A stretch of DNA of 64,000 bases from Rubrobacter tropicus (GTDB lineage Bacteria; Actinomycetota; Rubrobacteria; Rubrobacterales; Rubrobacteraceae): NCBI RefSeq assembly GCF_011492945.1, contig NZ_CP045120.1, forward strand, positions 1-64,000, read 5' to 3'. How positions within the stretch are numbered: position 1 is the stretch's first letter; every line of letters starts with the position of its first letter. The notes under the pieces were generated by a model. That model ran no database searches and was not told where the DNA came from. It saw nothing but the letters and a program-made list of their open reading frames with translations. The position numbers and the translations under genes are program-made. Positions 31,053 to 48,296 of the stretch are shown here, one piece after another.

Positions 31053-31670
31053 TTGGGCAACAGGCGCGACGACCCGGGCGCCCGCGGGGGCGCCCAGGGT
31101 CGCACAACGACAAGCGTAAGAAAGGAGCGCTCCTGGGCGCCGTGGATCGCGGGGGCGGTGTGCGTGGCCCTCGTCGCGGGCTTCGTGGCGCTCGCGGTCT
31201 TGGACAGCCGCCAACGGGCGGCGAGCTCCCCGCCCGCGAGCGTGGAGGAGCCCGACGTGGGCCCCGGCGGGCGGCACACGGCAGCCGACGTGGACTACGG
31301 GCAGACCCCGCCGGCCGGGGGCGAGCACAACCCCGTCTGGCAGAACTCCGGCTTCTACGACGCGCCCGTAAGGGACGAGAACGCCGTGCACACCCTGGAG
31401 CACGGGGCCGTCTGGATCACCTACAGTCCCGACCTGCCGCAGGACCAACGGGACCAGATCCGGCAGCTCGTCGAGGGCCAGACCTGCATGCTCGCGAGCC
31501 CCTACCCGAACATCCCGTCCCCGGTCGTGGCCTCCGCCTGGGGCAAGCAACTCGCCCTCGAGGACGCTAGCGGCGAGGACCTCGAGCGGTTCGTCCGCGC
31601 GTACCGCCAGGGGCCCGATACCCCCGAGCCCGGCGCCACCTGCACCGGCGGCACCGCCGACACGCTGTGA
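31053..31670 (+). CDS. DUF3105 membrane-anchored protein
   Basis: A 205-residue protein from a TTG behind CAGAGGTG. One N-terminal helix (residues ~30-50) anchors an extracellular DUF3105 domain, recognised by DVDYGQTPPAGGEHNPVWQN, followed by GFYDAPVRDENAVHTLEHGA and VWITYSP. The conserved His residues hint at metal binding. The family often accompanies DUF305 genes, as here: the next gene starts inside its stop (GTGA). Biochemical function of the family is unknown to me. Bases 30,934-31,052 are non-coding. Confidence 0.82.
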   Translation: MGNRRDDPGARGGAQGRTTTSVRKERSWAPWIAGAVCVALVAGFVALAVLDSRQRAASSPPASVEEPDVGPGGRHTAADVDYGQTPPAGGEHNPVWQNSGFYDAPVRDENAVHTLEHGAVWITYSPDLPQDQRDQIRQLVEGQTCMLASPYPNIPSPVVASAWGKQLALEDASGEDLERFVRAYRQGPDTPEPGATCTGGTADTL

Positions 31671-32329
31671 CGGGCGCGAAGGCCGCAACGGGCACGGGGT
31701 ACCCCGTCCTGGCGCTATCCGCAGCCGCGGTGCTCCTCGGGGCGCTCTCGCTGTGGCTCTACGTCTCCGGGCAACCGCCGGCAGACGATTCCGCCGAGGC
31801 CGGGTTCGCAAGGGACATGAGCGTGCATCACGCGCAAGCGGTGGAGATGGCCGAGATCGTGCGGGACAAGACCGAGAGCGACGAGATCCGGGTGCTCGCC
31901 TCGGACGTAGCGCTGACCCAGCAGGGCCAGATCGGGCAGATGCAGGGCTGGCTCGACGTGTGGGGCCTCCCGGCTACCGGGACGGAGCCCGCCATGGCCT
32001 GGATGGGGATGCCCACGCAAGGACGCATGCCCGGCATGGCCTCGCCCGAGGAGATAGGGCGCCTCAACGACTCCCCGCCCGCGGAGGCCGACAGGCTCTT
32101 CTTGCGGCTCATGATCCCGCACCACAGGGCGTCCCTCGGCATGACCCAGGCCGTCCTCGATGAGACCGACCGCCCAGAGGTGGGGGAGCTCGCACGCGCG
32201 ATCCAGGCCTCCCAGAAGGCCGAGATCGCCACGATGGAGGACATGCTCCGTGCCAGGGGTGGCGAGGCCCCGGTCGGGGGACCGGGTGAAGGCGCGGAAC
32301 CCATGCCGGGCATGGGGCACGGCAAGTGA
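31667..32329 (+). CDS. DUF305 protein, copy 1
   Basis: A 220-residue membrane-anchored protein coupled to the DUF3105 gene. The DUF305 (ferritin-like bundle) domain spans ~45-200 with its two signature halves: FARDMSVHHAQAVEMAEIV and RLMIPHHRASLGMTQAVL, each with a paired His. The middle and C-terminus are Met/His-rich (MAWMGMPTQGRMPGM, MPGMGHGK). Family members turn up near copper and other metal genes. Context here (copC, ycnI, Met-rich proteins) fits copper binding. Confidence 0.87.
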   Translation: MTGAKAATGTGYPVLALSAAAVLLGALSLWLYVSGQPPADDSAEAGFARDMSVHHAQAVEMAEIVRDKTESDEIRVLASDVALTQQGQIGQMQGWLDVWGLPATGTEPAMAWMGMPTQGRMPGMASPEEIGRLNDSPPAEADRLFLRLMIPHHRASLGMTQAVLDETDRPEVGELARAIQASQKAEIATMEDMLRARGGEAPVGGPGEGAEPMPGMGHGK

Positions 32330-32381: not shown

Positions 32382-32915
32382 ATGAGCGGTCCCCCGAATG
32401 CGGTCCGGGATACGGTCGTGCCCTTGGCCGGCGCGGGCCTGATCCTCGCCGTCGCCCTCGCCCACCTGGGGACGATCCACGAGCGCTTCGAGGAGGCGTC
32501 CTACCTTGGGACGCTGGCCGGGTTGGGCGTGGCGGGCTCCGCCGCGGCGGCCTTGGGCATCATCAGGGAGCGGCGGTGGGGGTGGGCCCTGGGCGCGGCG
32601 ATCGCCGGGGCCTCGCTCCTGTCCTACCTCCTGCCTTGGGCCGCCGGGGCGTCCGGGACGGATGGTGGGGGTCTGGGCGGGCTGCTTGAGCCCGTGGGCG
32701 TCCTCGCCGGCACCCTGGAGGCGCTCTTCCTGTTGCTCTGGGCCTGGAACCACTTCGCGGGCTTCGGGGGGAGGGGCCTCCTCTTGAGCACGGCGGCGGT
32801 GCTCGCGGCGGCGGGCCTCGCAACGGCGCTCATTTTCGTCGGGTTCGGCGGGTCCGAGGCGCCCCACGGCCCTGCGCTAGGAACGGAGCCCGCGCCGGGG
32901 GCGAAGCGTGGGTAG
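32382..32915 (+). CDS. Five-helix membrane protein, unknown function
   Basis: A 177-residue integral membrane protein from an ATG behind GGGGGGAC. Hydrophobic segments lie near residues 12-30, 40-60, 68-88, 105-125 and 132-152. It overlaps the first sortase gene by 8 bases, so it probably belongs to the same transcript. It resembles small DoxX-like or hypothetical actinobacterial membrane proteins only in topology. Confidence 0.65.
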   Translation: MSGPPNAVRDTVVPLAGAGLILAVALAHLGTIHERFEEASYLGTLAGLGVAGSAAAALGIIRERRWGWALGAAIAGASLLSYLLPWAAGASGTDGGGLGGLLEPVGVLAGTLEALFLLLWAWNHFAGFGGRGLLLSTAAVLAAAGLATALIFVGFGGSEAPHGPALGTEPAPGAKRG

Positions 32916-33735
32916 AAGGTCGAGAACGCGAACGTTCAGGAGGCGCCGCCGCAGGGCGAGCTTCGCGCTGCTCGTGACGCTGGCCGTCGCGGTCCTGGGA
33001 GCGCTGGCGTTCGCCGACCCGGATCCCGGCGACTGGCAGGCGGTCGCATCGCAAGGAGCGCGGACCGATGACGCCGTCCCAAGGGCCGAGACCCCGCGCC
33101 TCGCCCCCGGCGCACCGGACGCCCCGAGGACGGGCGAGGATGCCGGGCGGGCGGCAGCAGCGAAAGGGGAGGCCGAGGCAGCGGAGCCGCCCGAACCCTC
33201 CGGTGACGACGAGGGCGACGAGCCCAAGGAGGAGCGGAAAGAGCCGGAGCGGGCCGCCGGTCCGCCGCCGGTCCCCGATCCCCCGACGAACGACCTGTGG
33301 ATGTCCGTCCCGAAGATGGGCCTCTACGACGACTACGTCGCCAACTCCGACTCGGAGGCGGCGATGGACCGGGGCGCCATCAAGCTCACCTCGACGGGCT
33401 TCCCGTGGCAGGAGGGCGCCAACACCTACATCGCCGCGCACAGGATCGGGTACCCGGGCACCGAGAGCGACTACCAGTTCTACGACCTCCCGAACCTGGC
33501 CTTGGGGGACAGGATCTACCTCGGCGACGTAAACGGCACCACCTACACCTACGAGGTGACCGGCTTCAAGGAGGTGCTGCCCAGCGAGACCTGGGTCACG
33601 GCGCCCAAGGCCGGGCGGGACATGATCTCGCTCCAGACCTGCATCGAGGACTACGGCGACTACTGGACGATGGGCCCGAACTGGTACGTCCGCTACGTCG
33701 TCCAGGCCGAACGGGTTTCGGTGGACCCCGCGTGA
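32908..33735 (+). CDS. Sortase 1 (class D/E-like transpeptidase)
   Basis: A 275-residue type II membrane protein: Arg-rich N-terminus, one helix (~residues 18-35), a long acidic linker to ~130, then the sortase barrel. Catalytic residues appear as His178 (YIAAHRIGYPGTESDYQFY), Cys245 (SLQTC) and an Arg in WYVRYVVQAERV. Sortases cleave a wall-sorting motif and attach the protein to the cell surface. The partial gene at 63441 is its closest relative in this window. It overlaps sortase 2 as GTGA. The substrate is unknown; the only LPxTG signal I see here is on the YcnI-like protein. Confidence 0.9.
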   Translation: MGRRSRTRTFRRRRRRASFALLVTLAVAVLGALAFADPDPGDWQAVASQGARTDDAVPRAETPRLAPGAPDAPRTGEDAGRAAAAKGEAEAAEPPEPSGDDEGDEPKEERKEPERAAGPPPVPDPPTNDLWMSVPKMGLYDDYVANSDSEAAMDRGAIKLTSTGFPWQEGANTYIAAHRIGYPGTESDYQFYDLPNLALGDRIYLGDVNGTTYTYEVTGFKEVLPSETWVTAPKAGRDMISLQTCIEDYGDYWTMGPNWYVRYVVQAERVSVDPA

Positions 33736-34541
33736 ACGGCCACGACGACATCGCGGCCAGGATCGCCGCTGGGGACCGGCGAGGCGGGCGGGGGACAGGG
33801 ATCAGACGCGCGCTCCTCTGGGTGCTCAGCCCCGTCATGGTGCTCGCCGGGGTGGCGCTCATCGCCTCGTTCTTTCTCGCCGGCCGCCTGGACAGCACGG
33901 CGACCAACTCGGAAGACCCGGGCGGCTTCAACGTGCCCCGCCTGGAGACGACCACCGGGGGTGGCGAGGAGACCAGCCAGGCCGGTCCGCAGGACACGAC
34001 CCTCAAGCTGACGGTGCCCTCCATGAGCCGCATCGAGGACGACGAGATCCCGTCCACCGACGGCGGCGACGAGGCCTCCCTCAAAAAGTACGCCGCCATC
34101 CACCTCGAAGGGACGGGCTTCCCGTGGCAGGAGGAGGCCAACGTCTACATCGCAGGCCACCGCTTGGGCTACCCCAACACCGAGAGCTGGCTCACCTTCT
34201 GGGACATGAACAAGGTCGGCGTCGGAGACGAGATCTTCGTCACCGACTCCGACGGCACCGAATACACCTACAAGGTCTTCAAGGAGCTCACCGTCGGCCC
34301 CTCGGACACCTCCGTCACCAGCACCGAACCGGGCAAAAACATCCTCACCCTCCAGACCTGCACCCTCCCCGATTACTCCAAGCGCCTCATCGTGCAGGCC
34401 GAGCTCGTCCAGACCGTCGACGCGCGAGGCGGGCCATCCGGCCGGGAACGCACGGAGGCCGACCGGGGGAGATCTCCGCAGCGAACACCACGAGCCGAGG
34501 AAGGGAGGGCGGTGGCATGGCAGCTCCCAGAAAGCGCGTAG
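33732..34541 (+). CDS. Sortase 2
   Basis: About 269 residues from a GTG coupled to sortase 1. The anchor helix is at ~28-50. The barrel holds His143 (YIAGHRLGYPNTES), Cys210 (LTLQTCTLPDYSKR) and the Arg that follows. The tail after the catalytic core is ~50 residues longer than in sortase 3 and basic, and it overlaps the next gene; the natural stop may have been lost. Nearly the same protein is encoded at 60998. It may process a different substrate than sortase 1, but no evidence in the sequence settles this. Confidence 0.9.
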   Translation: MNGHDDIAARIAAGDRRGGRGTGIRRALLWVLSPVMVLAGVALIASFFLAGRLDSTATNSEDPGGFNVPRLETTTGGGEETSQAGPQDTTLKLTVPSMSRIEDDEIPSTDGGDEASLKKYAAIHLEGTGFPWQEEANVYIAGHRLGYPNTESWLTFWDMNKVGVGDEIFVTDSDGTEYTYKVFKELTVGPSDTSVTSTEPGKNILTLQTCTLPDYSKRLIVQAELVQTVDARGGPSGRERTEADRGRSPQRTPRAEEGRAVAWQLPESA

Positions 34542-34975
34542 CGCTGAAGCCGCACGCGGGGCGGATAGAGGAGTGGGTAAGGGCGGGCAGGACGGACGAG
34601 TGGATAGCCGACGCGCTCGGGACGAGCCCCTCCTCCGTGCAGTCTTTCCGCTCCCGCAATGGCATCCACCGCACCGGGCCCGTGGAGCCCGCGAGCGTCT
34701 TCTGCGGCGTCCTCGACCACGGCGAGCGCGACGGGTGGGGGCTCTGGCTCGACCCTTCGATCGTCGAGGACCCGATCTGGCGCGAGCACTGGGCGGGGGT
34801 GGAGTCCGTGACCGTGAAGGTCGCGGAAGACTCCGTGGTGCTGGAGGCCGTCGGGGGCGCTTCCAACGTCGCCGCACAACCGCCGCGCGCGACCGCGGAG
34901 AGCCGCGGCGGGGAACCGGTGCGATCGCCCGACCCGGAGTTCATCCGGCGGCCCGGAGGGCGAGGCGGGGAGTGA
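34517..34975 (+). CDS. Helix-turn-helix protein inside the sortase operon
   Basis: A 152-residue protein from an ATG behind AAGGGAGGG. Residues ~12-45 form a homeodomain-like helix-turn-helix (RIEEWVRAGRTDEWIADALG then SPSSVQSFRSRNGI). The middle is a small alpha/beta region and the C-terminus is polar. It overlaps sortase 3 as GTGA. Similar short HTH proteins occur in Rubrobacter-like genomes as hypothetical genes. It may regulate this operon; that is inference. Confidence 0.6.
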   Translation: MAAPRKRVALKPHAGRIEEWVRAGRTDEWIADALGTSPSSVQSFRSRNGIHRTGPVEPASVFCGVLDHGERDGWGLWLDPSIVEDPIWREHWAGVESVTVKVAEDSVVLEAVGGASNVAAQPPRATAESRGGEPVRSPDPEFIRRPGGRGGE

Positions 34976-35658
34976 CGAAGAACGGCGGCGCATCGGAGCG
35001 GGACCGGTGGACCACCGCCACCCGCGCGACGGGAGGGTCTCGGCCGAGACCGCGGCGGAAGCCCGCCCGTCGGAGGTGGCGCCTGGCCCTCCCGCTGTTG
35101 GGGTTCCTGCTGGTGGCCTTCTCGGTGGCCGTAGGGCTCGACCAGTTGCGGGTGCCGGTAGACGGCACCGCCACGGCGGCGGCGGCGCCGGAAGACAGGG
35201 GCCTCAAGCTCACGGTGCCGCGGATGGAGAGGGTGCGGGATCTGCCCGTCTTCGACGCCGCCGCCGCGGACGAGTCCGCGCTGCGGGGCGGCGCGCTCCA
35301 CGTAAAGGACACGGGCTTCCCGTGGCAGGAGGAGGCCAACGTGTACATCGCCGGCCACCGCTTGGGCTACCCGCGCACCAGGAGCTTCCTCGTCTTCTGG
35401 GACCTCAACAAGTTGCGGCGCGGGGACGGGGTGGTGCTCGAGGACTCCGGGGGGACGCGCTACGTCTACAGGGTCTTCGACAGGCTGGTGGTCCCGCCGG
35501 ACCGGGTCTCCGCCACCGAACCCATGGAGGGCAGGAACATAGTGAGCCTGCAGACCTGCACCCTGCCCGACTACCGGGAGCGCCTGATAGTCCGCGCGGA
35601 GTTGGCCCGCACCGTGGAGCCCACGGAGGGACGCGGCCCGCGCGCCGAAAAGAGCTAG
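34972..35658 (+). CDS. Sortase 3
   Basis: A 228-residue sortase from a GTG coupled to the HTH gene. The anchor helix is at ~38-58. Catalytic His129 lies in YIAGHRLGYPRTRS, Cys196 in VSLQTCTLPDYRER with the Arg just after. It is the most compact of the three tandem sortases. The VanW gene begins 24 bases on. Having three sortases with no adjacent classical substrate is unusual; a VanW or membrane sulfatase could be processed, or the substrates may be elsewhere. Confidence 0.9.
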   Translation: MTKNGGASERDRWTTATRATGGSRPRPRRKPARRRWRLALPLLGFLLVAFSVAVGLDQLRVPVDGTATAAAAPEDRGLKLTVPRMERVRDLPVFDAAAADESALRGGALHVKDTGFPWQEEANVYIAGHRLGYPRTRSFLVFWDLNKLRRGDGVVLEDSGGTRYVYRVFDRLVVPPDRVSATEPMEGRNIVSLQTCTLPDYRERLIVRAELARTVEPTEGRGPRAEKS

Positions 35659-35681
35659 GAAAAGACCACGGAGGATGATTC

Positions 35682-37484
35682 TTGGCATCTAGAGACGGCA
35701 AGACGACGGTGAGCAGCGAGACCCGGAGGCGCCGGGCAGCCCCGCGCGGCACGCCCGCCCGAAGGACCAGCGGCGGCAGGCGCGGGAGCTCCGCCGGAGG
35801 CATCGCCGGGGCGCTCGCACCAGCCCTCATAGTCCTGTGCGCCCTCGTGGCCGTGCTGGTGGCCGCCGATCACCTCGCGAACGCCGGCAAGGTCCACCGC
35901 GGGGTATCCGCCGGCAGCTTGTACCTCGGGGGGAAGACCCCCGAAGAGGCGAAGAGCCTCCTCGAGGCGCGGCGACCTGGCGACACACGGGAGGTTCGCC
36001 TCGTCGGCGGGCCGCGCGGCACCACGCTAGACCTCGGGGAGTCGGCCGCGGACCTCGACGCCGCGCGGACGGCGGAGCGCGCCTACGCCGTGGGGCGCAC
36101 GGGCGGGTTCTTCGAGCGCCTGGGCGACCGGGCGGACGCGGCCGTCGGAGCGGCCTCGGTCGAGCCCGCCGTGTCCTACGACCGGGGAGCGGTGCGCGAG
36201 GCGGTCGAGGGGCTGGCCGCCGAGACGGACCGAAAGCCCCATCCGGCCTCCGTCTCCGTCCGCGACGGCGAGGCCGAGGTCGCGCCCTCCCGCGAGGGCT
36301 ACGCGCTCGACGTGCCGGCGACGGCCCGGAACGTGGGGCGCGCCCTAGAAGATCTACGCGGCCAGGCTCCGATGGCCGGCGAGATCCTAGAACCCGAGGT
36401 ATCGACGCCCGAGGCCGAGAAGGCCGCGGCGGAGGCGAGCCGGGCGATGTCCCGGGCCGTCGCGCTGACGCAGGGCGAGCGGCGCTGGGAGCTCTCGCGG
36501 GCCGAGATAGGGCGCACGATGGACTTCGCAACCGAGGGCGGCGCACTACGCGTCTCCCTGGACCGGGAGACGCTCAGGGAGAACCTTGGCGACGTCTACG
36601 CCGCGCTCGAGGAGGAGCCGCGCGAGGCCTCCTACCGGGTCGACGGCGCCGAGGTCTCCGTCGTGCCCGCGAGCGAGGGAAGGCAGATAAACGAGGAGAA
36701 ACTCTTCGGGGCCATCGAGGAGAGGCTCATTGGTGCCGGAAGCCGGAGGGAGTACGAGGTGCCCGTCGGCGTCGCGAGGCCCCAGCTGACCACCGCCGAG
36801 GCCGAAGCGATGAGGCCGACGCAGAAGCTCGGCTCCTACCGCACCAACTACTCCATAGTCCAGGACTCGGGCGCCAGGGTGGAAAACCTGGCGATCTCCT
36901 CGAGCGCCGTGAGCGGCACGCTCCTGGCGCCGGGAGAGACGTTCTCGATGAACGGCACCGTCTCCGGCCTCGACTACAACGCCACCAAGGTGATCGTGGA
37001 CGGCCAGGAGACCCTCGCCGACGGCGGCGGCCTCTGCCAGGTCACCTCGACCCTCTACAACGCCGTCAACGAGGCGGGCCTCGACGTCGTGGAGCGCTCC
37101 CCCCACTACTCGCAGCTCCCGTACATAAGGCCGGGCCTCGACGCGACGGTATGGTTCGGCGACGAGCAGGGAAGAGGCGCCCTCGACATGAAGTTCGAGA
37201 ACACCTCGGACGGTTACGTGCTCCTCAGGGAGTACGTGGCAGACGACGGCTACATCTACGCCGAGGTATGGGGCGTCCCCGACGACGTCACGGTCCAGAC
37301 GTGGTCCGAGCCCGTCTACAGGAACGCCGACTCGGCCGAGTGGGTCACCTACCAGACCTTCAGGGAGGGCGGAAAGATCGTCTACGACGGGGTGCTCCAC
37401 AGGGACACCTACGAGGCGCTCAAAGACAAGAAGGGCAAACCCATCCCGGCCGACACCGTGCCCGTGGCCCCCGTCGACCCATGA
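35682..37484 (+). CDS. VanW family protein with PG-binding repeats (VanW-1)
   Basis: A 600-residue membrane-anchored protein from a TTG behind GGAGGAT. The helix at ~45-67 is followed by two peptidoglycan-binding-4-like repeats (VSAGSLYLGGKTPEEAKSLL and a later copy). The VanW domain is at ~385-510 (KLGSYRTNYS, APGETFSMNGTVSG, DGGGLCQVTSTLYNAV and PHYSQLPYIRPGLDATVWFG). The C-terminal tail ends PIPADTVPVAP. VanW occurs in some vancomycin-resistance loci and in wall-associated proteins, but its activity is unknown. The first half has the YoaR-like architecture. A frameshifted relative lies at 61620. Confidence 0.88.
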   Translation: MASRDGKTTVSSETRRRRAAPRGTPARRTSGGRRGSSAGGIAGALAPALIVLCALVAVLVAADHLANAGKVHRGVSAGSLYLGGKTPEEAKSLLEARRPGDTREVRLVGGPRGTTLDLGESAADLDAARTAERAYAVGRTGGFFERLGDRADAAVGAASVEPAVSYDRGAVREAVEGLAAETDRKPHPASVSVRDGEAEVAPSREGYALDVPATARNVGRALEDLRGQAPMAGEILEPEVSTPEAEKAAAEASRAMSRAVALTQGERRWELSRAEIGRTMDFATEGGALRVSLDRETLRENLGDVYAALEEEPREASYRVDGAEVSVVPASEGRQINEEKLFGAIEERLIGAGSRREYEVPVGVARPQLTTAEAEAMRPTQKLGSYRTNYSIVQDSGARVENLAISSSAVSGTLLAPGETFSMNGTVSGLDYNATKVIVDGQETLADGGGLCQVTSTLYNAVNEAGLDVVERSPHYSQLPYIRPGLDATVWFGDEQGRGALDMKFENTSDGYVLLREYVADDGYIYAEVWGVPDDVTVQTWSEPVYRNADSAEWVTYQTFREGGKIVYDGVLHRDTYEALKDKKGKPIPADTVPVAPVDP

Positions 37485-38614
37485 GCGCCGGGAGGGCACG
37501 CAAACGCCCGGCGAGGGGCGCGGTGGGGGAGACGAAGGTCTCCGTGCTCGAGCTCTCGGGGCACCCCGAGCTCCTGGCCGGCGTGAACGAGCTGCGCGCC
37601 CGCGTCTACCCGGACCACCCGGAGGCCCGCGACGCCCGGCGCCACGCGGAGGTCTGGGGCTGGCTCGGCCGCCACCCCCTGGCCCGCGAAATGCGCCGCT
37701 GGGTGCTGGCGACGGGGGAGGGCCAGGTCGTCGGGCACCTGGCCTCGCTGCCGCAGCGCTACCGGATAGCGGGCAAGCGCGTGGTCGCCCACACCACTGC
37801 GGACTACCAGGTGCTCCCCGGCTACGGCTTCCACGCCGTCTCCCTGATGCGCCGCTTCTTCCGGACGGCGGAGAATTGCGTGTCGGCCGACCAGGTGGCC
37901 GGGGCGATGGCCGTTCAAAGGCGATTCGGGGCCGAGGTGGCGGGATCTTTGCGCTACGAGGCCAAGCTGCTCGACCCCTCGCGCATCCCGAGGGTGCCCG
38001 CACCGCTCCGCCCGCTCCTGGCCCCCGCGCGCTGGGGGCTGCGGGCGCTCGATGCGACCCTGCCAAGCGTGTTCGGCAGGGGCCCGAAGGTGGACGTCCT
38101 CGACGGGTTCGACGCCTCTTTCGACGACCTCTTCGAGCGCGTGGCGGCCTCCGTGCCCTGCGCGCCGGAGAGGGACGCCGCTTTCCTGAGGTGGCGCTAC
38201 GGCACCGGCTCGCCTCCGTACCCCGTCACCGTCCTCGGCGTCAGGGAGGCGGGAAGTGCTTCGGGCACCCTACTCGGCTACGCCGTGTTGCGGGTGGGGG
38301 ACGACGGCCAGAACGGCTACGTGCTCGACCTGACGGCGAGCCCGGGGCGCGACGACGTGGCGTGGTCGCTCTTGCGGGAAGCGGTCCGGTTCTTCGGGCG
38401 GGCGGGCGTCTACGTGGTCCGCTACCGCTTCGCGACGTCGCCCACCTCGCCCCAACCTCGCGACCTCAGGGGCTTGGGCTTCTTCTCCCGGCCCCGTCGC
38501 GCCCACACGCTGATGGTCAGGTTCGCCGACCGCGGCCTGCACGAGACGGCCCTCGACGCGGCCAACTGGTCCTACACCACGGGCGACGGGGAGGCCGGCT
38601 TTTGGGTCAGTTGA
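37481..38614 (+). CDS. GNAT-like acyltransferase
   Basis: A 377-residue cytosolic protein whose start overlaps the VanW-1 stop (ATGA). It looks like a two-lobed GNAT protein: lobe one has ELRARVYPDHPEA, QVVGHLASLPQRY and DYQVLPGYGFHAVSLMRRFF; lobe two has FLRWRYGTG, GYAVLRVGDDGQNGYVLDL and a long C-terminal lobe. Similar proteins modify small molecules or cell-surface sugars and can act like FemAB transferases. Its place between two VanW genes suggests modification of a wall component or surface glycan. Substrate is unknown. Confidence 0.7.
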   Translation: MSAGRARKRPARGAVGETKVSVLELSGHPELLAGVNELRARVYPDHPEARDARRHAEVWGWLGRHPLAREMRRWVLATGEGQVVGHLASLPQRYRIAGKRVVAHTTADYQVLPGYGFHAVSLMRRFFRTAENCVSADQVAGAMAVQRRFGAEVAGSLRYEAKLLDPSRIPRVPAPLRPLLAPARWGLRALDATLPSVFGRGPKVDVLDGFDASFDDLFERVAASVPCAPERDAAFLRWRYGTGSPPYPVTVLGVREAGSASGTLLGYAVLRVGDDGQNGYVLDLTASPGRDDVAWSLLREAVRFFGRAGVYVVRYRFATSPTSPQPRDLRGLGFFSRPRRAHTLMVRFADRGLHETALDAANWSYTTGDGEAGFWVS

Positions 38615-38779
38615 CGGCTCGTGGAGACTTGCCAAGGGAAGCGGCGTCCGGGGCGCGAAAACGGGCGGTCAGACCCTCGCGCCCGCGTGTGCCTCGCAGA
38701 AGAAACGACGGGTCGCGAGCCATGGACCTCGCCGCGACGGCAGCAACAAAGACACAGACCACCAGAGGGGAGAGCGCGC

Positions 38780-40225
38780 ATGCTCGAATACGATAGGCGA
38801 GGCGGGGGACACTCGACCGCACGGGGAGGGCCGCCCCGCGGTCGCAGCACCCGCTACGCCCGCAGCCGCCGCTCGCGCTACGCCAGGCGGCGGGGTGTCG
38901 CCCTGGTGGTCGGCATCGCCTGCCTGCTCTTCGCCGGCTTCGCGCTCGCGGACCTCCTGGCCGGAGACGGCGGCATCCAGCGCGGCGTCCGCATAGGCGA
39001 CGTCAGCGTCGGCGGGATGTCGCAGAACGAGGCCCTGGCCGCCGTGCAAAAGAATGCCGCAGACACGTTCCAGGAGATCTCCTTCGGAGAGGGACCCGAG
39101 GCCGTCTCCGTGCCCGCGGACGAGCTCGGCGTGAGGGTCAACGCCGAGGCCGCCGTGGACGAGGCATACGCCCTCGGCCGGACTGGCGGCCCCTTCGCCC
39201 GCGTCTCGGACACCATAGGCTCCTACTTCGGCGTCACGCAGGTCGAGCTTAGAGCTGGCTACGACAGGGAAGCCGCCAGGGCCACCGTCGACGGGATCGC
39301 CGCGGACTTCAACCGCGAGCCCAAGGACGCGACCTTCAGCGTCGCCGACGGCGGCGACGTCGTGGTCGAGGAGGCCGAGAACGGCCGGACGCTCGACGAG
39401 GGGGCCACGCTGAAGAACCTCGAAGGAGCGCTCCAGAACATGAGCGGGCGGGTGCCGCTGGCCGAGGCGCCGGCGCCGGAGCCCGAGGTCACGACCGCCG
39501 AGATCCAGAAGAGCAAGCCCGAACAGGCGATCGGGGAGTACCAGACGGACTTCCTCTGGGACTCGAACCCGAACCGCCAGGAGAACATGAAGCTCGCGGC
39601 GGGCGCGGTGAACAACACGGTGCTCAAACCGGGTGAGACCTTCTCCTTCAACGACCTGACCTCCTCCCTCGATTACAAGGAGGCCAAGACCTTCTCAGAC
39701 GGCGGCGTGGGCGTGGACAACGGGGGCGGGCTCTGCCAGGTCTCATCTACGCTGTACATGGCCGCCCAGTACGCCGGGCTGGAGATCGTGGAGCGGGAAC
39801 CCCACTATGCGGTCCTGCCTTACATCAAGCCGGGCTTCGACGCGACGGTGTGGTTCGGCGACGAGTACGGCAACGGGGCCATCGACATGCGGTTCAAGAA
39901 CAACACCGGGTCCCCGATAATCGTCCGCGAGTGGGTGGACGAGAAGGGCTTTTTGAACGCCCAGATCCTCGGCCAGCCGACCGGCAAGAAGGTCCAGATG
40001 AGGACGGAGAAGATCTTCGAGGACACCGCCCGCGGCATCCGGTGGGACACCTATAAGACCGTCACCGAGAACGGCGAGGTGACGCAGGATGGCCGCATCC
40101 ACACCTACACCTACTCGTACAACCCGCCGGCGCCGGAGGGCGGACCGCACTACGAGACCTCCGCCCCGAGAGTCTCGGGTTGGAACGACCCGGGCAACAC
40201 CACCGGTTGGGCGGACGTGGAGTGA
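38780..40225 (+). CDS. VanW family protein (VanW-2)
   Basis: About 481 residues from an ATG behind AGAGGGGAGAG. Membrane helix at ~40-60, two peptidoglycan-binding-4-like segments (RIGDVSVGGMSQNEALAAVQ and later), then the VanW domain at ~255-385 (IGEYQTDFLWDSNPNRQEN, DGGVGVDNGGGLCQVSSTLY and PGFDATVWFGDE). The end NTTGWADVE is shared with the short VanW gene at 59900. The spacer 38,615-38,779 before it holds no gene. A GTGA overlap couples it to the LtaS-like gene, tying wall-surface proteins to a polymer-modifying enzyme. Confidence 0.88.
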   Translation: MLEYDRRGGGHSTARGGPPRGRSTRYARSRRSRYARRRGVALVVGIACLLFAGFALADLLAGDGGIQRGVRIGDVSVGGMSQNEALAAVQKNAADTFQEISFGEGPEAVSVPADELGVRVNAEAAVDEAYALGRTGGPFARVSDTIGSYFGVTQVELRAGYDREAARATVDGIAADFNREPKDATFSVADGGDVVVEEAENGRTLDEGATLKNLEGALQNMSGRVPLAEAPAPEPEVTTAEIQKSKPEQAIGEYQTDFLWDSNPNRQENMKLAAGAVNNTVLKPGETFSFNDLTSSLDYKEAKTFSDGGVGVDNGGGLCQVSSTLYMAAQYAGLEIVEREPHYAVLPYIKPGFDATVWFGDEYGNGAIDMRFKNNTGSPIIVREWVDEKGFLNAQILGQPTGKKVQMRTEKIFEDTARGIRWDTYKTVTENGEVTQDGRIHTYTYSYNPPAPEGGPHYETSAPRVSGWNDPGNTTGWADVE

Positions 40226-42147
40226 GCGGAAGGGACCAAGGGGGGAGGTCCGGGGGACTCCGGTTACTCTCGCGGCTTTTGAGCCGCCGGGAATGGGCGT
40301 ACGTGCTCGCCCTACTGGTCCCCTTCGTCGGGCTCAACCTGGCCCTGAAGGCCTCCCGCGCCTCCGCGCTCGGGAGCGGGGGAGCCGGGTACACGGGTTT
40401 TTTGGCCCCGGACCTGCTCTTCTGCGCCGGGTACGCGCTGCTCTGGGTGGGGCTGTTTGCCGCCTTCCGGAGCGGGTGGGGACGCTGGTGCGTGGTCGTG
40501 CTTTTCCACGCCTCCGCTGTGGTGGTGGCCTTGCTCACCGTCGCGGCCTACAGGTTCTTCGCGGTTACCGGCTCGAGGCTCGACCTCGACACGGTGCTCT
40601 ACTTCCTCTCCTCCCCGGGCGAGGTGGCGCCCGTGGTCGCCAGCGAGGCCTCGCCCGTGCTCTTCGCCGCGGTCGCGGCGGCCCTCCTCTACGCGCTGCT
40701 CGGGCCCGGCCTGCTGGCTTGGGCCGTCGGCGGGGGCGGGTCTTCGCGCCCGAACCCGCGCCCGACCTGGCGCGCGCCCGCGGTAGCCGGCCTGTGGGCG
40801 CTGGTCTTCGTCTCGCTCTCCGCCCTGGTCGGCGCCGCCCGCGGGCCATCCGACGGGATGCTCTCCGGAAGTCCCCCGGTGGAGCTGGTCGCGGCGGAGG
40901 TCGGGCACCTGGGCGCCGCCCGGACCTACGGGGTCGACGCCGCGCGCGTGCGCGAGAACCTGCCGACGGCCACGAGCCTGAAGCCGACGCCCGGCGCCGA
41001 GAAGCGCAACGTCGTGCTGATCTCGCTCGAGTCCACCCGCGCCCGCTCCGTCACCCCCTACAACCGGAACCTAAAGACCACGCCGTTCCTGGACGGGCTC
41101 TCCGGAGAGAGCATCCTCGCCGAGCGGGCCTACGCGGTCACGCCGCACACCACGAACGCCCTCACGGCGACCGTCTGCGGCATAGATCCCCCCGACCGGG
41201 AGGAGACCGAGTCTTTGGGCGATCGTATCCCCTCCCGCTGCCTCCCGGAGCTGCTCGACGACCAGGGCTACAAGTCAGCCTTCTTCCAGTCGGTCAAGGA
41301 GGATTTCGAGCGCCGTCCGCAGGTGGCGAAGAACATGGGCTACGAGGACTTCTACTCCCTGGAGGACATGAACACCACGGGCTTCGAGCGGGCCAACTAC
41401 TTCGGCTACGAGGACGATGCCATGCTGGGGCCGAGTCGGGAGTGGCTGGAGCAGAACGGCGAGAAGCCGTTCTTCGCCACCTACAACACGATCACGCCGC
41501 ACCACCAGTACCTCGCCCCGGAAGGGCGCCACGGGCGGAAAGACTTCGCCGAGGACGACCAGCTGAACCGCTACCAGAACTCCGTGCGCTACCTGGACTT
41601 CTTCGTAGAGAACCTGATCCGGCAGTACAAGGAGATGGGGCTCTACGAGGACACCGTCTTCGTCATCCAGGGAGACCACGGCGAGGCCTTCGGCGAGCAC
41701 GGCCGCTACCAGCACGACAACGTGATCTGGGAGGAGGGTATAAGGATCCCGCTGATGGTCCTCGACCCCTCGCGCCCCGCGTCGCGGGTCAAGGCGCCGG
41801 TCAACCAGCTCGACGTCCTGCCCACGGTGGCGGACCTGCTCGGCTACAGAATCGAGGGCGGCGAGTACCCCGGGCGCTCGATTGTCGACCCGTTGCCGGA
41901 GGATCGCGCCATCAAGGCGAGCTGCTGGTACGAGAACGAATGCGTCGCGAGCGTGAAAGGTGACGAGAAGTACGTCTACCACTACGGCGCGAGGCCGGAG
42001 GAGCTCTATGACCTCTCCGAAGATCCCTCGGAGAAGAACAACGTAGCCGCAGACGCGCCGCCCGGGTACCTGAAGGCCCGTCGGGAGGAGCTCCTCCGGT
42101 GGCGCGCGGAGGTCGAGGCGGCTTACGGGGAGGGGCCGGGCTCGTGA
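40222..42147 (+). CDS. LtaS-like membrane sulfatase / phosphoglycerol transferase
   Basis: About 641 residues from a GTG coupled to VanW-2. Five membrane helices fill residues ~25-215. The extracellular sulfatase-fold domain starts near 270 (NVVLISLESTRARSVTPYNR) and has AVTPHTTNALTATVCG, whose Thr lies where LtaS-type enzymes have their nucleophile. Further along are GDHGEAFGEHGRYQHDN and EEGIRIPLMVLD. LtaS-type enzymes move phosphoglycerol onto lipoteichoic acid or similar polymers. Whether this makes a polymer or removes a group is not visible. It precedes a true sulfatase and an arylsulfotransferase. Confidence 0.85.
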   Translation: MSGRDQGGRSGGLRLLSRLLSRREWAYVLALLVPFVGLNLALKASRASALGSGGAGYTGFLAPDLLFCAGYALLWVGLFAAFRSGWGRWCVVVLFHASAVVVALLTVAAYRFFAVTGSRLDLDTVLYFLSSPGEVAPVVASEASPVLFAAVAAALLYALLGPGLLAWAVGGGGSSRPNPRPTWRAPAVAGLWALVFVSLSALVGAARGPSDGMLSGSPPVELVAAEVGHLGAARTYGVDAARVRENLPTATSLKPTPGAEKRNVVLISLESTRARSVTPYNRNLKTTPFLDGLSGESILAERAYAVTPHTTNALTATVCGIDPPDREETESLGDRIPSRCLPELLDDQGYKSAFFQSVKEDFERRPQVAKNMGYEDFYSLEDMNTTGFERANYFGYEDDAMLGPSREWLEQNGEKPFFATYNTITPHHQYLAPEGRHGRKDFAEDDQLNRYQNSVRYLDFFVENLIRQYKEMGLYEDTVFVIQGDHGEAFGEHGRYQHDNVIWEEGIRIPLMVLDPSRPASRVKAPVNQLDVLPTVADLLGYRIEGGEYPGRSIVDPLPEDRAIKASCWYENECVASVKGDEKYVYHYGARPEELYDLSEDPSEKNNVAADAPPGYLKARREELLRWRAEVEAAYGEGPGS

Positions 42148-43787
42148 GGGGTACGGTCCCCCGCGCGGCCGACCCTGTCCGCGCGGCGTACCTGGTACTC
42201 GTCTCCCTGCTGCTGGCCTCGTGCCTCCCGAGCGCCGAGGGGCAGCAGCCCGAGCCCGAGAAGGCGGAGCAGGACCGCCCGAATGTCGTCCTGGTCGTCA
42301 CGGACGACCTCGCCGCGCGCGACCTGAACCCGCAGACCCTAAAGGCCATGCCGAACATCCGGTCCCTCGCGGAGGGGGGCACCACCTTCGAGAACGCGTT
42401 CGTGACGGACTCCCTGTGCTGTCCCTCCCGGACCACGATCCTGCGCGGCCAGTACGCCCACAACCACCAGGTCCTCACCAACGCCCCGCCTCTGGGCGGG
42501 GCCGAGAAGTTCCGCGTCTCCGGCGGCGACGCCTCGACGGTGGCGACCTGGCTGCAGGAGGACGGCTACAGGACCTCGTTCTTCGGCAAGTACCTCAACG
42601 GCTACTTCGGGGACTACGTCCCGCCCGGCTGGGACGAGTGGTACGGCGTCTCCGGCAACTTCCTTAGCAACAGCCTCAACGAGAACGGCGCGATCATCGA
42701 CTACGACCCGGAGAGATACCACCTCGACGACGTGCTCGCCGACAAGGCCTCGGGCTACGTGCGGCGCACGGCCGGGGCCGACCCGCCCTTCTTCACGAGC
42801 GACCGCCCGTTCCTGATGTGGCTCGGCACCAAGGCCCCCCACCAGCCGGCCACCCCCGCCCCCCGCCACGAGGACGCCTTCGGGGACGCCGAGCTCCCGC
42901 GACCGCCCTCCTTCGACGAGGCCGACGTCTCTGACAAGCCGGGGTGGGTGAGGGACAACGTGCCGCTCGGGTCGGACCAGGTGGCCTACATGGAGGAGCT
43001 CAACCGCGACCGCATGCGGTCCATGCTCGCGGTCGACGACATGGTGGGCGACCTCCTCGACGCCCTCAGGGAGAGCAACGAACTCGACAACACCTACGTC
43101 GTCTTCACCTCCGACAACGGCTTCCACATGGGAGAGCACCGCCTGGGCGCCGGCAAGTGGACGGCCTACGAAGAAGACATCAGGGTGCCCCTGATCGTGC
43201 GCGGCCCCGGAGTCCCAGAGGGAAAGACGCTCCCGCACATGGTCCTCAACAACGATATCGCCCCGACCATCGCCGACCTCGCCGAGGTCGATCCCCCGGA
43301 CTTCGTTGATGGCCGCTCCGTGGTCCCCCTGCTCGACGACACCCCGACGCCCGAGAAGGACTGGCGCCAGCGGTTCCTCGTCGAGGCGGTCGCCGAGAGG
43401 GGCGCCGTCCCGAGGCCGCCGTTCGTCGACGAGAGCCGGGTCGTTCCCCTGGTCACCGGCGATCCGTTGCCCAGGGACTGGCGCAAGACCTCCGCCGGCA
43501 GGGCCGAGTCGGGCGAGAACTGGGGCCGCCCCTGGCTAAAGGCCTTAAGAACAAAGGACTACCTCTTCGTCGAGTACAAGACCGGCGAGCACGAGCTGTA
43601 TGACCTGAGAAAGGACCCCTACGAGTTGAACAACATCTACGAGAGCGCCCCACCGGACCTCCTCGAGCGCCTGAACGCCCAGCTCGACTCCCTGCGCCAG
43701 TGCGAGAGGGAAAACTGCAGGACCGCGGAAGACGGCCGGTCCACGAGGCCGGCGGGCGCCGCTTCGAGAGAGCAGGGAACTGGGTGA
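42144..43787 (+). CDS. Formylglycine-dependent sulfatase (lipoprotein)
   Basis: About 547 residues from a GTG coupled to the LtaS-like gene. The N-terminus is a lipoprotein signal (VSLLLASC lipobox). The type I sulfatase signature CCPSRTTIL, with Cys92 to be converted to formylglycine, is intact. VVVTDDLAARDLN supplies metal ligands, and SDNGFHMGEHRLGAGKW matches the second signature. It should hydrolyse sulfate esters at the cell surface. The activating enzyme (FGE) is not in the window. It is coupled to an arylsulfotransferase, which runs the reverse kind of chemistry. Confidence 0.9.
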   Translation: MRGTVPRAADPVRAAYLVLVSLLLASCLPSAEGQQPEPEKAEQDRPNVVLVVTDDLAARDLNPQTLKAMPNIRSLAEGGTTFENAFVTDSLCCPSRTTILRGQYAHNHQVLTNAPPLGGAEKFRVSGGDASTVATWLQEDGYRTSFFGKYLNGYFGDYVPPGWDEWYGVSGNFLSNSLNENGAIIDYDPERYHLDDVLADKASGYVRRTAGADPPFFTSDRPFLMWLGTKAPHQPATPAPRHEDAFGDAELPRPPSFDEADVSDKPGWVRDNVPLGSDQVAYMEELNRDRMRSMLAVDDMVGDLLDALRESNELDNTYVVFTSDNGFHMGEHRLGAGKWTAYEEDIRVPLIVRGPGVPEGKTLPHMVLNNDIAPTIADLAEVDPPDFVDGRSVVPLLDDTPTPEKDWRQRFLVEAVAERGAVPRPPFVDESRVVPLVTGDPLPRDWRKTSAGRAESGENWGRPWLKALRTKDYLFVEYKTGEHELYDLRKDPYELNNIYESAPPDLLERLNAQLDSLRQCERENCRTAEDGRSTRPAGAASREQGTG

Positions 43788-45343
43788 GCAAGACGGCCGG
43801 GCTCGACGCGTCTTCGGGCGGCGGCGAGGAACAGGACGCCGCGCGGACGCGCAAGCATTTTTTGGTCACGGCGGGCGGGGGGGCCCTGCTCGCGCTCTCC
43901 GGCCTCGCCGGTTTGGGACTCGTCGCTCGCGCGCCGGACGCGAACATCCGTGCGGGCGCCTCGCCGGCGCAGACGGGGCGGACGTGGGTCTTCCGCTCCC
44001 GCCCGGACCTACGGCCGCCCCCGGTCGAGGTGACAACGCCTGCCGGTGGGGCGTATCCGGGCTACGTCTTCGCCGCGGCGAAGAACGGCCCCGGCGAGGC
44101 GCACCCCTCTCAGGACGGGCCGATGATCCTGGACAACGAAGGCCGTCCCGTCTGGCTGTGGCCCGTGCGCGAAGAAGCGCGGGACGCGATGGACTTCAAG
44201 GCGCAGAGCTACCGGGGGAAGCCCGTCATCACCTGGTGGGAGGGCGTGCACGGGGGTTTCGGGCGGGGCGAGTACGTGATCTTCGACGACTCCTATCGCG
44301 AGGTGGCCCGGGTGCGGGCGGGCAACGGCTACGAGGGCGACCACCACGAGTTCCTGATTACCGCCCGCGACACAGCCCTGCTCGTCATCTACGGCCCGGC
44401 GCGCAGGGATCTCTCCGCTGTGGGAGGGGCCCCGGACGGGGCGGTGCTCGAAGGGGTGATCCAGGAGATAGACGTAGCTTCGGGCGAGGTCCTCTTCGAG
44501 TGGCACAGCCTGGAGCACGTGGACGTCTCCGAGTCCTACCGGCGGCCTCGGCCCGACCAGCGGGAGGCCTTCGACTACTTCCACATAAACTCCGTGGACG
44601 TCGACAAGGACGAGAACCTCATCGTCTCCGCCCGCAGGACCTCGGCCGTCTACAAGATCGACCGCCGGTCAGGCGAGGTCATCTGGCGCCTGGGCGGCAA
44701 GAGGAGCGACTTCGAGATGGGGGAGGGCGCCCGCTTCGCCTTCCAGCACGACGCCCGCCGCCACCCCGACGGCACCATCACCCTCTTCGACAACCGCGGC
44801 GAGGACATGCGAGAGCCTTCCCGGGCCGTCGCCCTCACGCTCGACGAGGGCGCAATGAAGGCGACGCTTGCCAGGGAGTACGTGCACCCCGACCGGTTCT
44901 TCGCCATCTTTCAGGGCAACGTCCAGGCGCTGCCGGGCGGCAACGTATTCGTCGGCTGGGGCAGCGCGCCGTACCTGTCCGAGTTCTCGCGCGAGGGGAA
45001 GCTGCTCTTCGACGCCCGCTTCCCCAGCGAGGCCGAGTCCTACAGGGCCTTTCGCTTCCCGTGGAAGGGCCTCCCGAAGGACCGGCCCGCGGTCGCCGCC
45101 GGACCCCGGAGCGAGGACCGTACCACCCTCTACGTCAGCTGGAACGGCGCCACGGAGGTCGCCGCATGGGAGGTGCTCGCGGGCCCCGCACCGGACCGGC
45201 TGGAGCCGCTGGGCTCGGCACCGCGAAGGGGCTTCGAGACCGCCATAACCTTCACCACCCCGGAGCCCTACGTCGCCGTTAGCGCCAAAGACCGCTCCGG
45301 GCTGACGCTCGCCACCTCGGAGGCGGTCCGGCTCGGGAGATGA
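43784..45343 (+). CDS. Arylsulfotransferase (ASST) family protein
   Basis: About 519 residues from a GTG coupled to the sulfatase. A short N-terminal helix (LLALSGLAGLGLVA) probably anchors or exports it. The rest is a beta-propeller with the ASST pattern: repeated strands ending in W (VITWWEGVHGG), DHHEFLITARDTALLVIYG, SGEVLFEWHSLEHVDV, FDYFHINSVDVDKDENLIVS, GEVIWRLGG and FAFQHDARRHPDGTITLFDN. The conserved His in HHEF/HINS/QHDAR form the family's active site. ASST moves sulfate between phenolic compounds without PAPS. Pairing with a sulfatase suggests sulfate turnover on a surface or external compound. Confidence 0.85.
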   Translation: MSKTAGLDASSGGGEEQDAARTRKHFLVTAGGGALLALSGLAGLGLVARAPDANIRAGASPAQTGRTWVFRSRPDLRPPPVEVTTPAGGAYPGYVFAAAKNGPGEAHPSQDGPMILDNEGRPVWLWPVREEARDAMDFKAQSYRGKPVITWWEGVHGGFGRGEYVIFDDSYREVARVRAGNGYEGDHHEFLITARDTALLVIYGPARRDLSAVGGAPDGAVLEGVIQEIDVASGEVLFEWHSLEHVDVSESYRRPRPDQREAFDYFHINSVDVDKDENLIVSARRTSAVYKIDRRSGEVIWRLGGKRSDFEMGEGARFAFQHDARRHPDGTITLFDNRGEDMREPSRAVALTLDEGAMKATLAREYVHPDRFFAIFQGNVQALPGGNVFVGWGSAPYLSEFSREGKLLFDARFPSEAESYRAFRFPWKGLPKDRPAVAAGPRSEDRTTLYVSWNGATEVAAWEVLAGPAPDRLEPLGSAPRRGFETAITFTTPEPYVAVSAKDRSGLTLATSEAVRLGR

Positions 45344-45471: not shown

Positions 45472-46293
45472 CTACGCCAGCAGCGCGACCGCGACTACGG
45501 CGGCGAGGGCGAAACGGTAGATGGCGAAGACCGTGAGACCGTGGTGCCTCAGGAAGCCGAGGAGGAACCTGATGGCCAGGTACCCCACGGCGGCGGACGA
45601 CGCGATGCCCAGCCCGAAGATCACCGCTTCGTGGGCGTCCATTCCTCCGACTATCGCCTTGGCCAAGCTGAACCCGGCGGCGATAGCGATGATGGGCACG
45701 CTCATCAGGAACGAGAAGCGGGCCGCCTCCTCCCGCCTCAAGCCCAGAAAGAGCCCCATCGCGATGGTAGCCCCCGAGCGCGAGACGCCGGGCACCAGCG
45801 CCGACGCCTGCGCCAGCCCTACGGCGAGCGCACCGGTAAAGCCAAGCTTCTCCATTCCGCGGTCCTTGCCCCCCGCGGCCTCGGCGACGAGAAACAGCGC
45901 CCCGACCAGCACGAGGTTAAAGACCACCACCCAAGGCGAGCGCACCGTGGGGCCGGCCAGGACGTCCTCGAAGAAGAAGCCGAAGATCCCGGCCGGCACT
46001 GTCGCCGCCAGGATAAGGAAGGCCATGCGCCGGTCGGGGTCCTCCGCGGCGCCGGCGCGTCGCGCGGGGCGGAGCAGGGCCCGGGCCATCCCGAGGAAGT
46101 CCCTCCAGAAAAAAGAGACCACGGCAAGGAGCGTGCCCGACTGTATCGCCGCGTCGAAGGGCAGCCCGAAGCGTTCCTGGTCCACGCCGAGGAATTGCTG
46201 GGCCAGAAGGAGGTGGCCGGAGCTGGAGACGGGGAGGAACTCCGTCAGCCCCTGCACCACGCCGAGCAGCGCCGCTTGCAGCAGTTCGAGCAC
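45472..46293 (-). CDS. uppP: Undecaprenyl-diphosphatase UppP (BacA)
   Basis: 273 residues from a GTG at 46293, matching the usual UppP length; the longer open frame adds an unlikely Arg/Pro-rich leader. Signature motifs EFLPVSSSGHLLLAQ near the N-terminus and PGVSRSGATIAMGLFLGL are intact, within ~8 membrane helices. UppP recycles undecaprenyl diphosphate, the lipid carrier of wall polymers, and gives bacitracin resistance. It faces the surface-modification operon tail to tail; the 128-base gap 45,344-45,471 has no gene. It could supply lipid carrier for the same surface pathway. Confidence 0.93.
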   Translation of the reverse strand: MLELLQAALLGVVQGLTEFLPVSSSGHLLLAQQFLGVDQERFGLPFDAAIQSGTLLAVVSFFWRDFLGMARALLRPARRAGAAEDPDRRMAFLILAATVPAGIFGFFFEDVLAGPTVRSPWVVVFNLVLVGALFLVAEAAGGKDRGMEKLGFTGALAVGLAQASALVPGVSRSGATIAMGLFLGLRREEAARFSFLMSVPIIAIAAGFSLAKAIVGGMDAHEAVIFGLGIASSAAVGYLAIRFLLGFLRHHGLTVFAIYRFALAAVVAVALLA

Positions 46294-46339
46294 GCGGGGT
46301 AGTTTAACCTTTGCGGGCGGGAGACGCGGTCTTCGGGGA

Positions 46340-46363
46340 GGCGCGGTCCGGCCGGACCGCGCC
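46340..46363. repeat. 24-bp perfect palindrome between uppP and phosphatase
   Basis: GGCGCGGTCCGG is followed immediately by its complement CCGGACCGCGCC. It lies 96 bases downstream of the phosphatase stop and upstream of the uppP start, so it may act as a terminator for one gene or an operator for the other. The remainder of 46,294-46,459 has no gene. Confidence 0.55.
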
Positions 46364-46459
46364 CCGCTTCGTCGCCTGCTCGGGCGAGGAAGCATGTCCA
46401 TGCCCGCGGGTGCTTCGGCCAAGCCGCCGAGGGCGAGGCGGGTTGCCTGAGGGGGCGGG

Positions 46460-47677: not shown

Positions 47678-47944
47678 GACGCACCCGCGCGTCGCGCGAT
47701 CCCGCAGGCGCAGGAAACGCGAGATCCGCACGAGGTCCACGGCGACCTGCAACGCGCCGCGGAGCGCGCAGGCGCGCACGCCTCCATGCCCCTGTAGTTC
47801 CGACTTCACAGTGTGGGCAAGCATAGGCGGCCCCGACGCGGGCCGCATCAGGCGGATGGGCCAACGTTGCCTGGTCCCATCGTGCCAAAAACGGGCGGAC
47901 CGTGGCGCGAACCCCGCAGTGCGCCCTCGCCGACCATGCCACTG

Positions 47945-47968
47945 TACAATGCGTCCCATGCATGGGAC
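47945..47968 (+). promoter_or_regulatory. Leaderless promoter and palindromic operator of the ArsR gene
   Basis: TACAAT (-10) at 47945-47950 ends 7 bases before the ATG at 47958, so transcription should begin at or next to the start codon. A perfect 16-bp palindrome, GTCCCATGCATGGGAC (47953-47968), is centred on the start codon. Autorepression by the encoded ArsR protein is a natural reading. The remaining 47,678-47,944 has no gene. Confidence 0.6.
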
Positions 47969-48296
47969 CCGCCGCACCCGCCCGGCCGAGGCCGGGCCGG
48001 CAGACGCGCACATCGCGCCCGAGATTCGCGAGGCCAGCGAGCTCCTCAAGGTGCTGGGCGATCTCACCCGGATGCGCCTGCTCTGCGCCCTGCTCCGGGA
48101 GGGGGAGCTCTCGGTCGGCGGCCTGCAGGCCGCCCTCGGCATGAGCCAGTCGGCCGTCTCCCACCAGCTCAGGGTTCTGCGCGATGCCCGCCTCGTCGGC
48201 TTCGAGAGGTCTGGCAAGACGGTCCGCTACTCGCTGGCGGACGACCACGTCCGCGACCTGCTCCGGGTCGTCCTCGAACACGCCCGACACGACTGA
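47958..48296 (+). CDS. ArsR/SmtB-family metal-sensing repressor
   Basis: A 112-residue winged-helix repressor. The recognition helix region is LSVGGLQAALGMSQSAVSHQL, with the wing GFERSGKTVRYSL. It lacks the CVC motif of CadC. His/Asp residues near the C-terminal helix (DDHVRDLLRVVLEHARHD) match the alpha-5 zinc site of CzrA/SmtB-type sensors. No ribosome site precedes it, consistent with a leaderless mRNA. The downstream promoter (48323) has a TTCATATGAA palindrome typical of this class, so it probably controls the exporter operon. Confidence 0.85.
   Translation: MHGTRRTRPAEAGPADAHIAPEIREASELLKVLGDLTRMRLLCALLREGELSVGGLQAALGMSQSAVSHQLRVLRDARLVGFERSGKTVRYSLADDHVRDLLRVVLEHARHD

Follow-up and report, generated by a model that had tools for sequence, protein, structure and literature searches.

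A run of ten genes on the + strand (32908-45343) of the 64-kb window analysed here is best explained, with moderate confidence, as the envelope half of a metal-homeostasis island carried on a plasmid: a composite of core cell-wall gene paralogues packed for co-expression. The window covers the first 64 kb of C2, a 205,328-bp contig in a two-contig, 4.58-Mb genome of the family Rubrobacteraceae; C2, being small and separate, is presumed to be a plasmid. The run encodes three sortases, a helix-turn-helix (HTH) protein, two VanW proteins, a GNAT acyltransferase, an LtaS-like enzyme, a sulfatase and an arylsulfotransferase (ASST) independent of 3'-phosphoadenosine-5'-phosphosulfate (PAPS). This interpretation is carried by the identities of the genes, their packing, their intact active-site residues, the recurring island core and the finding that the sub-blocks have separate homes; the island looks like known parts in a new combination, assembled from several older gene neighbourhoods. 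The original prediction had placed all ten genes in one sulfate-centred pathway. Surface remodelling by the run is likely, whereas a single sulfated-polymer pathway is not supported and the metal-homeostasis setting had been overlooked.

Homologues were collected by single-protein searches over 36 to 60 relatives, the position of every homologue was taken, and ~80 neighbourhoods were inspected. Gene maps were drawn with a simple codon-usage gene caller, with BLAST and Pfam as checks; the gene starts given for flanking loci are approximate.

Layout and packing of the ten-gene run

The ten genes of the run are as follows.

32908..33735, +, sortase 1 (srtA): PF04203 E 1e-22; motifs AAHR and LQTC; GTG start at 32908 or 32974
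33732..34541, +, sortase 2 (srtB): PF04203 E 9e-25; TIGR01076 above cut-off
34517..34975, +, HTH protein (hth): weak HTH_28 match, Pfam E 0.09
34972..35658, +, sortase 3 (srtC): PF04203 E 1.5e-25
35682..37484, +, VanW-1: transmembrane (TM) anchor, PG_binding_4 and VanW domain; Cys452 in GGGLCQ and a conserved His
37481..38614, +, tandem-GNAT acyltransferase (gnat): weak Pfam match, E 0.007; AlphaFold fold N-myristoyltransferase/Eis-like; no TM segment
38780..40225, +, VanW-2: TM anchor, PG_binding_4 and VanW domain; Cys319, His342
40222..42147, +, LtaS-like membrane protein, predicted phosphotransferase: PF00884 E 2e-49; 5 TM segments; Thr310 at the nucleophile position
42144..43787, +, lipoprotein-type sulfatase: PF00884 E 9e-53; lipobox LASC; CCPSR formylglycine motif
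43784..45343, +, PAPS-independent ASST: PF14269 E 2e-57; solved homologue 9kf6, E 4e-123

The ten reading frames are all intact, and the expected catalytic residues are retained in the run enzymes wherever this could be checked. As originally proposed, the frames lie on the + strand with the named domains, which pass the Pfam cut-offs in 8/10 genes (the HTH and GNAT matches are weak). Adjacent frames overlap by 4 nt (GTGA or ATGA) at srtA/srtB (33732-33735), hth/srtC (34972-34975), vanW1/gnat (37481-37484), vanW2/ltaS (40222-40225), ltaS/sulfatase (42144-42147) and sulfatase/ASST (43784-43787), in exact agreement with the start/stop overlaps listed at the outset. Such an overlap is possible at 6/9 junctions of the run versus 6/46 elsewhere in the window (Fisher p 0.002), indicating that the run is packed more tightly than its local background.

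The description of the run as one coupled operon stood for these six junctions but not for the remainder. The srtB and hth genes overlap by 25 nt, a 23-nt gap separates srtC from vanW1, and coupling is interrupted by a 165-nt gap between gnat and vanW2 (38615-38779). Position 32908 is also not a boundary, as co-directional genes for a DUF3105 protein, a DUF305 protein and a small membrane protein lie directly upstream. No + strand terminator was found between run genes, and no sigma-70-like promoter was recognised in the scan, where the organism may use another consensus. On this layout a single operon is plausible, and the ten genes are probably expressed together. Rfam and tRNA scans of the 64-kb window returned nothing.

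Recurrence of the island and origin of its sub-blocks

Around the run, the plasmid carries genes for a DtxR-type regulator, Nramp, DUF1775, CopC, DUF3105, DUF305, UppP, alkaline phosphatase, ArsR, a methyltransferase and CDF. It is these neighbouring genes, and these only, that suggest a metal-related role for the island. The link between DUF305 and copper comes from CopM of Synechocystis (PMC4335983). The features mapped outside the run are as follows.

31053..31670, +, DUF3105 protein, upstream island member: PF11303 E 6e-46; 4-nt overlap with the DUF305 gene
31667..32329, +, DUF305 protein (CopM-like family): PF03713 E 2e-47
32418..32915, +, small membrane protein: gene call with no Pfam match; 8-nt overlap with the srtA start
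45472..46422, -, UppP/BacA undecaprenyl-diphosphatase, convergent with the run: PF02673 E 2e-78; TIGR00753 above cut-off
46460..47779, -, alkaline phosphatase: PF00245 E 1e-71
47958..48296, +, ArsR-family metal regulator: PF01022
48400..49047, +, PEMT/ICMT-type methyltransferase: 76% identity to the Rubrobacter marinus plasmid copy
49079..50122, +, CDF cation efflux protein: 80% identity to the R. marinus plasmid copy
59900..63998, +, decayed second partial set (vanW2 piece, sortase, split vanW1, srtA start): hth next at C2:64789

A counterpart island was found within 25 kb (113.9-138.5 kb) of the R. marinus SCSIO 52915 plasmid NZ_CP045122.1, at 52-80% identity. Both islands contain CDF (80% identity), methyltransferase (76%), ArsR (67%), DUF305 (65%), UppP (61%), DUF3105 (55%), VanW1-like (55%), LtaS-like (53%) and VanW2-like (52%) genes as well as a sortase, with DUF3105 and DUF305 paired. 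The R. marinus island differs in gene order, lacks hth, gnat, sulfatase and ASST, and has PBP2, transglutaminase and trypsin-like genes as extras. A second locus on that plasmid (54-72 kb) reads sortase-VanW-LtaS-like-DUF305-ArsR-CDF, and a third genus (G013) carries two LtaS-like genes, VanW1, DUF3105, DUF305, ArsR, CDF and a P-type ATPase. An LtaS-like gene lay near DUF305 or DUF3105 in 7/42 cases versus 1.4 expected (simulated p 0.0004); expectations here and below assume random gene placement and take no account of contig ends or of common ancestry between genomes, which makes the linkage p-values only indicative. Taken together, these loci and the LtaS-DUF305 linkage define the recurrent unit as metal handling plus envelope enzymes, with hth, gnat, sulfatase and ASST as optional members. 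With plasmids as the target, a Megablast search with the run matched only the LtaS-like gene of R. marinus.

The sub-blocks of the run have separate homes in chromosomal core loci. The first locus, found by position in eleven genera, contains UppP, chorismate mutase/prephenate dehydratase (PheA), HTH, histidine phosphatase and VanW1. The second contains VanW1, FemAB, a pyridoxal-phosphate (PLP) decarboxylase, an AMP ligase, an acyl carrier protein (ACP), GNAT, VanW2, a class-A-beta-lactamase-like protein and MurJ. The third, present in several genera (L211, L212, L213, L214, L216), contains LtaS-like, Lgt, penicillin-binding protein and sortase genes. Linkage far exceeded expectation for hth-vanW (13/25 vs 0.5), gnat-vanW (17/23 vs 0.5) and ltaS-sortase (9/42 vs 1.3).

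Homologues of all ten families also lie within 33 kb of the genome's own chromosome (3.882-3.915 Mb), in scrambled order and on both strands. The chromosomal island keeps srtB-hth-srtC-gnat in plasmid order but without vanW1, with hth 80% identical. It also holds an ASST followed by srtA, sulfatase, Lgt, sortase, vanW2, srtC, srtB and DUF305, and further gnat, ltaS, a heparan-N-acetyltransferase-like gene and vanW1. A decayed third set stands on the plasmid itself at 59900-65200 (vanW2 piece, sortase, vanW1 in two frames, srtA start and hth), spanning 59900-63998 of the window and L127:1-1166. In another species (G008), srtA-srtB-gnat-vanW2 occur in order, plus two sortases, Lgt and DUF305, across two short contigs; these appear to join at vanW2, which is cut by both contig ends. 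In one genome (G000) the paralogue load is very high, with 23 matches for sortase, 15 match rows for VanW and 18 LtaS-like/sulfatase-fold matches.

These observations also bear on the possibility that the plasmid genes were gathered by paralogue recombination and are perhaps co-transcribed, but are functionally unrelated and kept or decaying at random. The tracing of sub-blocks to different core loci, the decayed copy on the same replicon and the difference between plasmid and chromosomal order all agree with such fortuitous assembly. It is nevertheless judged unlikely, though deserving of some weight, because the sortase, double VanW, UppP, LtaS-like, DUF305 and CDF content recurs on the plasmid of another genus with linkage above chance, and because ten intact frames with their catalytic residues are packed above local background.

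Predicted activities of the run enzymes

In the LtaS-like protein, five TM segments accompany a sulfatase-fold domain that lacks the formylglycine (CxPSR) motif, and Glu270, Thr310 and Asp485-His486 occupy positions matching LtaP/LtaS. The residues at these positions presumably play the roles generally known for LtaS. The nearest solved structures are 3lxq, 4uop and 4uoo, the last two sharing this architecture and these positions. The protein thus has the features of the LtaS-type phosphoglycerol transferase superfamily (five TM segments, sulfatase fold, Thr at the nucleophile position, no CxPSR) but scored far below the LtaS equivalog model cut-off (90.5 vs 970 bits). Because the LtaP/LtaS residues are kept and the formylglycine motif is absent, the protein should be a phosphotransferase.

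The sulfatase carries CCPSR at residue 92 within PF00884, as expected of a type I (formylglycine) enzyme, and three genes of the formylglycine-generating-enzyme family are present in the genome. The ASST scored 195 bits against a Pfam arylsulfotransferase cut-off of 27, exceeded the cut-offs of both PF14269 and PF05935, and matched the solved sulfotransferase 9kf6 at E 4e-123 over 447 aa. These domains ally it with the arylsulfate sulfotransferases (EcAST, whose sulfated catalytic His is His436; 9kf6), and the HxN and QHD motifs are shared with 9kf6. Export is predicted for both enzymes (lipobox in the sulfatase, TM segment in the ASST).

The ten genes in run order were found only on their own 205-kb replicon. 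In a survey of ASST linkage covering 23 genomes of Rubrobacteraceae, 0/30 ASST genes outside the own genome had an LtaS-like, VanW, sortase, GNAT or HTH gene at a distance of 12 kb or less, and many ASST genes stood alone within housekeeping chromosome regions. With the full sulfatase list, a related sulfatase was no more than 12 kb from an ASST in 7/36 cases versus about 1 expected; two genomes supplied most of these cases, and the sulfatases were mostly of other subfamilies. The juxtaposition of a sulfatase and a PAPS-independent sulfotransferase, pointed out originally, has modest comparative support on its own. The co-occurrence of sortase, VanW, LtaS-like, sulfatase and ASST genes, which the original prediction had offered as its check and as the point on which a single pathway should stand or fall, was absent outside the own genome; no independent genome had the same set linked, a result limited in part by the fragmented assemblies of many relatives.

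In the pathway so proposed, the LtaS-like enzyme would make a surface polymer, the ASST would add and the sulfatase remove sulfate, and VanW proteins and sortases would place or anchor the product. The 4-nt overlaps connecting vanW2-ltaS-sulfatase-ASST, the ASST-sulfatase proximity and the retention of the same families within 33 kb of the chromosome favour it. It is nonetheless improbable, given the missing ASST linkage and the homologous R. marinus plasmid island without ASST and sulfatase; on the own chromosome, moreover, ~10 kb separates ASST from sulfatase, the two lying on opposite strands, and ltaS is opposite in direction to vanW. The closest chromosomal relatives of the sulfatase (70-78% identity) also speak against a single pathway of all ten genes. 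Their neighbours, in five genomes or more, are a UDP-sulfoquinovose-synthase-like gene (340 bits, under its 575 cut-off), a GT2 enzyme and other membrane genes. Orthologues beside the synthase-like gene and a DUF2304-GT2 glycosyltransferase were located at L161:7157-13038, L162, L163, L205 and L209.

Slightly less probable still is a two-enzyme unit in which sulfatase and ASST scavenge or detoxify external aryl sulfates while riding in an otherwise unrelated operon. The predicted export of both enzymes, the sulfatase-fold genes adjoining ASST in several loci and the use of aryl sulfate as donor by ASSTs (PMC13426309) are consistent with it. On the other side, the synthase-like and glycosyltransferase neighbours of the sulfatase orthologues indicate a sugar substrate, and the sulfatases next to ASST elsewhere belong mostly to other subfamilies.

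VanW-1 and VanW-2 each have one TM segment, a PG_binding_4 domain and a VanW domain with conserved Cys and His; in VanW-2, Cys319 and His342 are invariant across 17 homologues. The same architecture is found in LdtCd4/LdtCd5 of Clostridioides difficile, VanW proteins reported to form L,D cross-links, although L,D-transpeptidase activity is absent in some VanW proteins (PMC12729407). By analogy with LdtCd4/LdtCd5, whose gene setting is different, both run proteins are probable L,D-transpeptidases. The close packing of surface enzymes noted originally is supported; the VanW proteins, suggested there to place or anchor a product together with the sortases, are better read as such transpeptidases. 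A PDB sequence search with VanW-2 returned no relative. A glycopeptide-resistance module, suggested by the VanW domain and by automated resistance calls on the R. marinus plasmid, is highly improbable, as VanW-1 (42.2 bits) and VanW-2 (60.2 bits) fell far below the 365 cut-off of the resistance-associated model (NCBIfam vanW-gen) and no vanHAX-type gene was recognised among the annotated genes of the run or flanks.

The run sortases keep the sortase domain and the His, Cys and Arg motifs by Pfam and motif check; against the class C and E models they reached at most 52.6 bits vs a cut-off of 160. A strict tail rule found no LPxTG substrates in C2:1-104000. The DUF1775 copper-type protein at 27843-28511 has an LPETGG anchor sequence and a hydrophobic stretch; its frame runs on to a first stop at 29396, overlapping CopC at 28513, which may mean a frameshift.

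The plasmid HTH protein is a shortened paralogue of the core gene. The core orthologue (L147:6937-7539 and relatives) has an extra C-terminal cold-shock domain, absent from the plasmid and chromosomal-island copies. The GNAT model (AlphaFold, 27 sequences; mean pLDDT 88) has a two-domain GNAT fold and no TM segments, with N-myristoyltransferases and Eis as nearest folds (Z about 20), and members of the family turned up only in Rubrobacteraceae and a few Chloroflexota. Since the fold most resembles tandem GNATs of the N-myristoyltransferase/Eis type, a FemX enzyme no longer serves as the working model for this protein. Pfam gave no FemAB match.

Proposed mechanism and chromosomal context

For the envelope half of a metal-homeostasis island, we infer the enzyme activities, co-transcription and metal stress as the setting. 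When expressed, the plasmid would supply a second set of envelope enzymes. The three sortases would anchor exported surface proteins, and the two membrane-tethered VanW proteins, with their peptidoglycan-binding domains, would probably form L,D (3-3) peptidoglycan cross-links. The tandem-GNAT protein would probably acylate a wall precursor in the cytoplasm, with the carrier coming from the chromosomal ACP-ligase-decarboxylase cassette. The LtaS-like enzyme would place a phospho-alcohol on an anionic surface polymer, whose phosphate-bearing groups could bind metals, and UppP would recycle the undecaprenyl carrier. The sulfatase and ASST, added in the own lineage only, would work on sulfate esters beyond the membrane, a side activity that is probably separate.

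Several points weigh against this interpretation. Co-transcription across the 165-nt gap is only plausible from the layout, some VanW proteins lack the activity assumed here, and the copper link of DUF305 is carried over from CopM of Synechocystis (PMC4335983). The presence of homologues of all ten genes within 33 kb of chromosome allows for a function shared by the whole set, ASST and sulfatase included.

A more specific version of the metal-homeostasis island, rather improbable at present, is a metal-tolerance device that protects the wall by placing spare Cys-dependent enzymes (three sortases and two VanW proteins) beside metal efflux. Copper reportedly inhibits L,D-transpeptidases. With UppP and the anionic-polymer enzyme also supplied, wall assembly could continue when the housekeeping enzymes are blocked by copper or other thiophilic metals. 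No paper on an operon of this kind came up in literature searches, and the combination of duplicated peptidoglycan/surface enzymes and metal-efflux genes on Rubrobacteraceae plasmids was not described in the literature searched. It raises the question whether mobile elements come equipped with wall-maintenance enzymes of their own against metal stress.

The second core locus, which holds gnat and vanW2, was located at L110:6844-18285 on the own chromosome and at L168-L191; FemAB is optional, and the locus occurs partly in Chloroflexota too. Its ligase, decarboxylase and ACP genes include close relatives of the exosortase-A-associated trio (TIGR03098, 567 bits; TIGR03099, 418 bits), just under the curated cut-offs (592 and 478), and the trio is absent from the plasmid run. 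This conserved chromosomal locus sets the unexplained trio in a peptidoglycan context, beside FemAB, VanW and MurJ, and may merit more attention than the ten-gene run itself.

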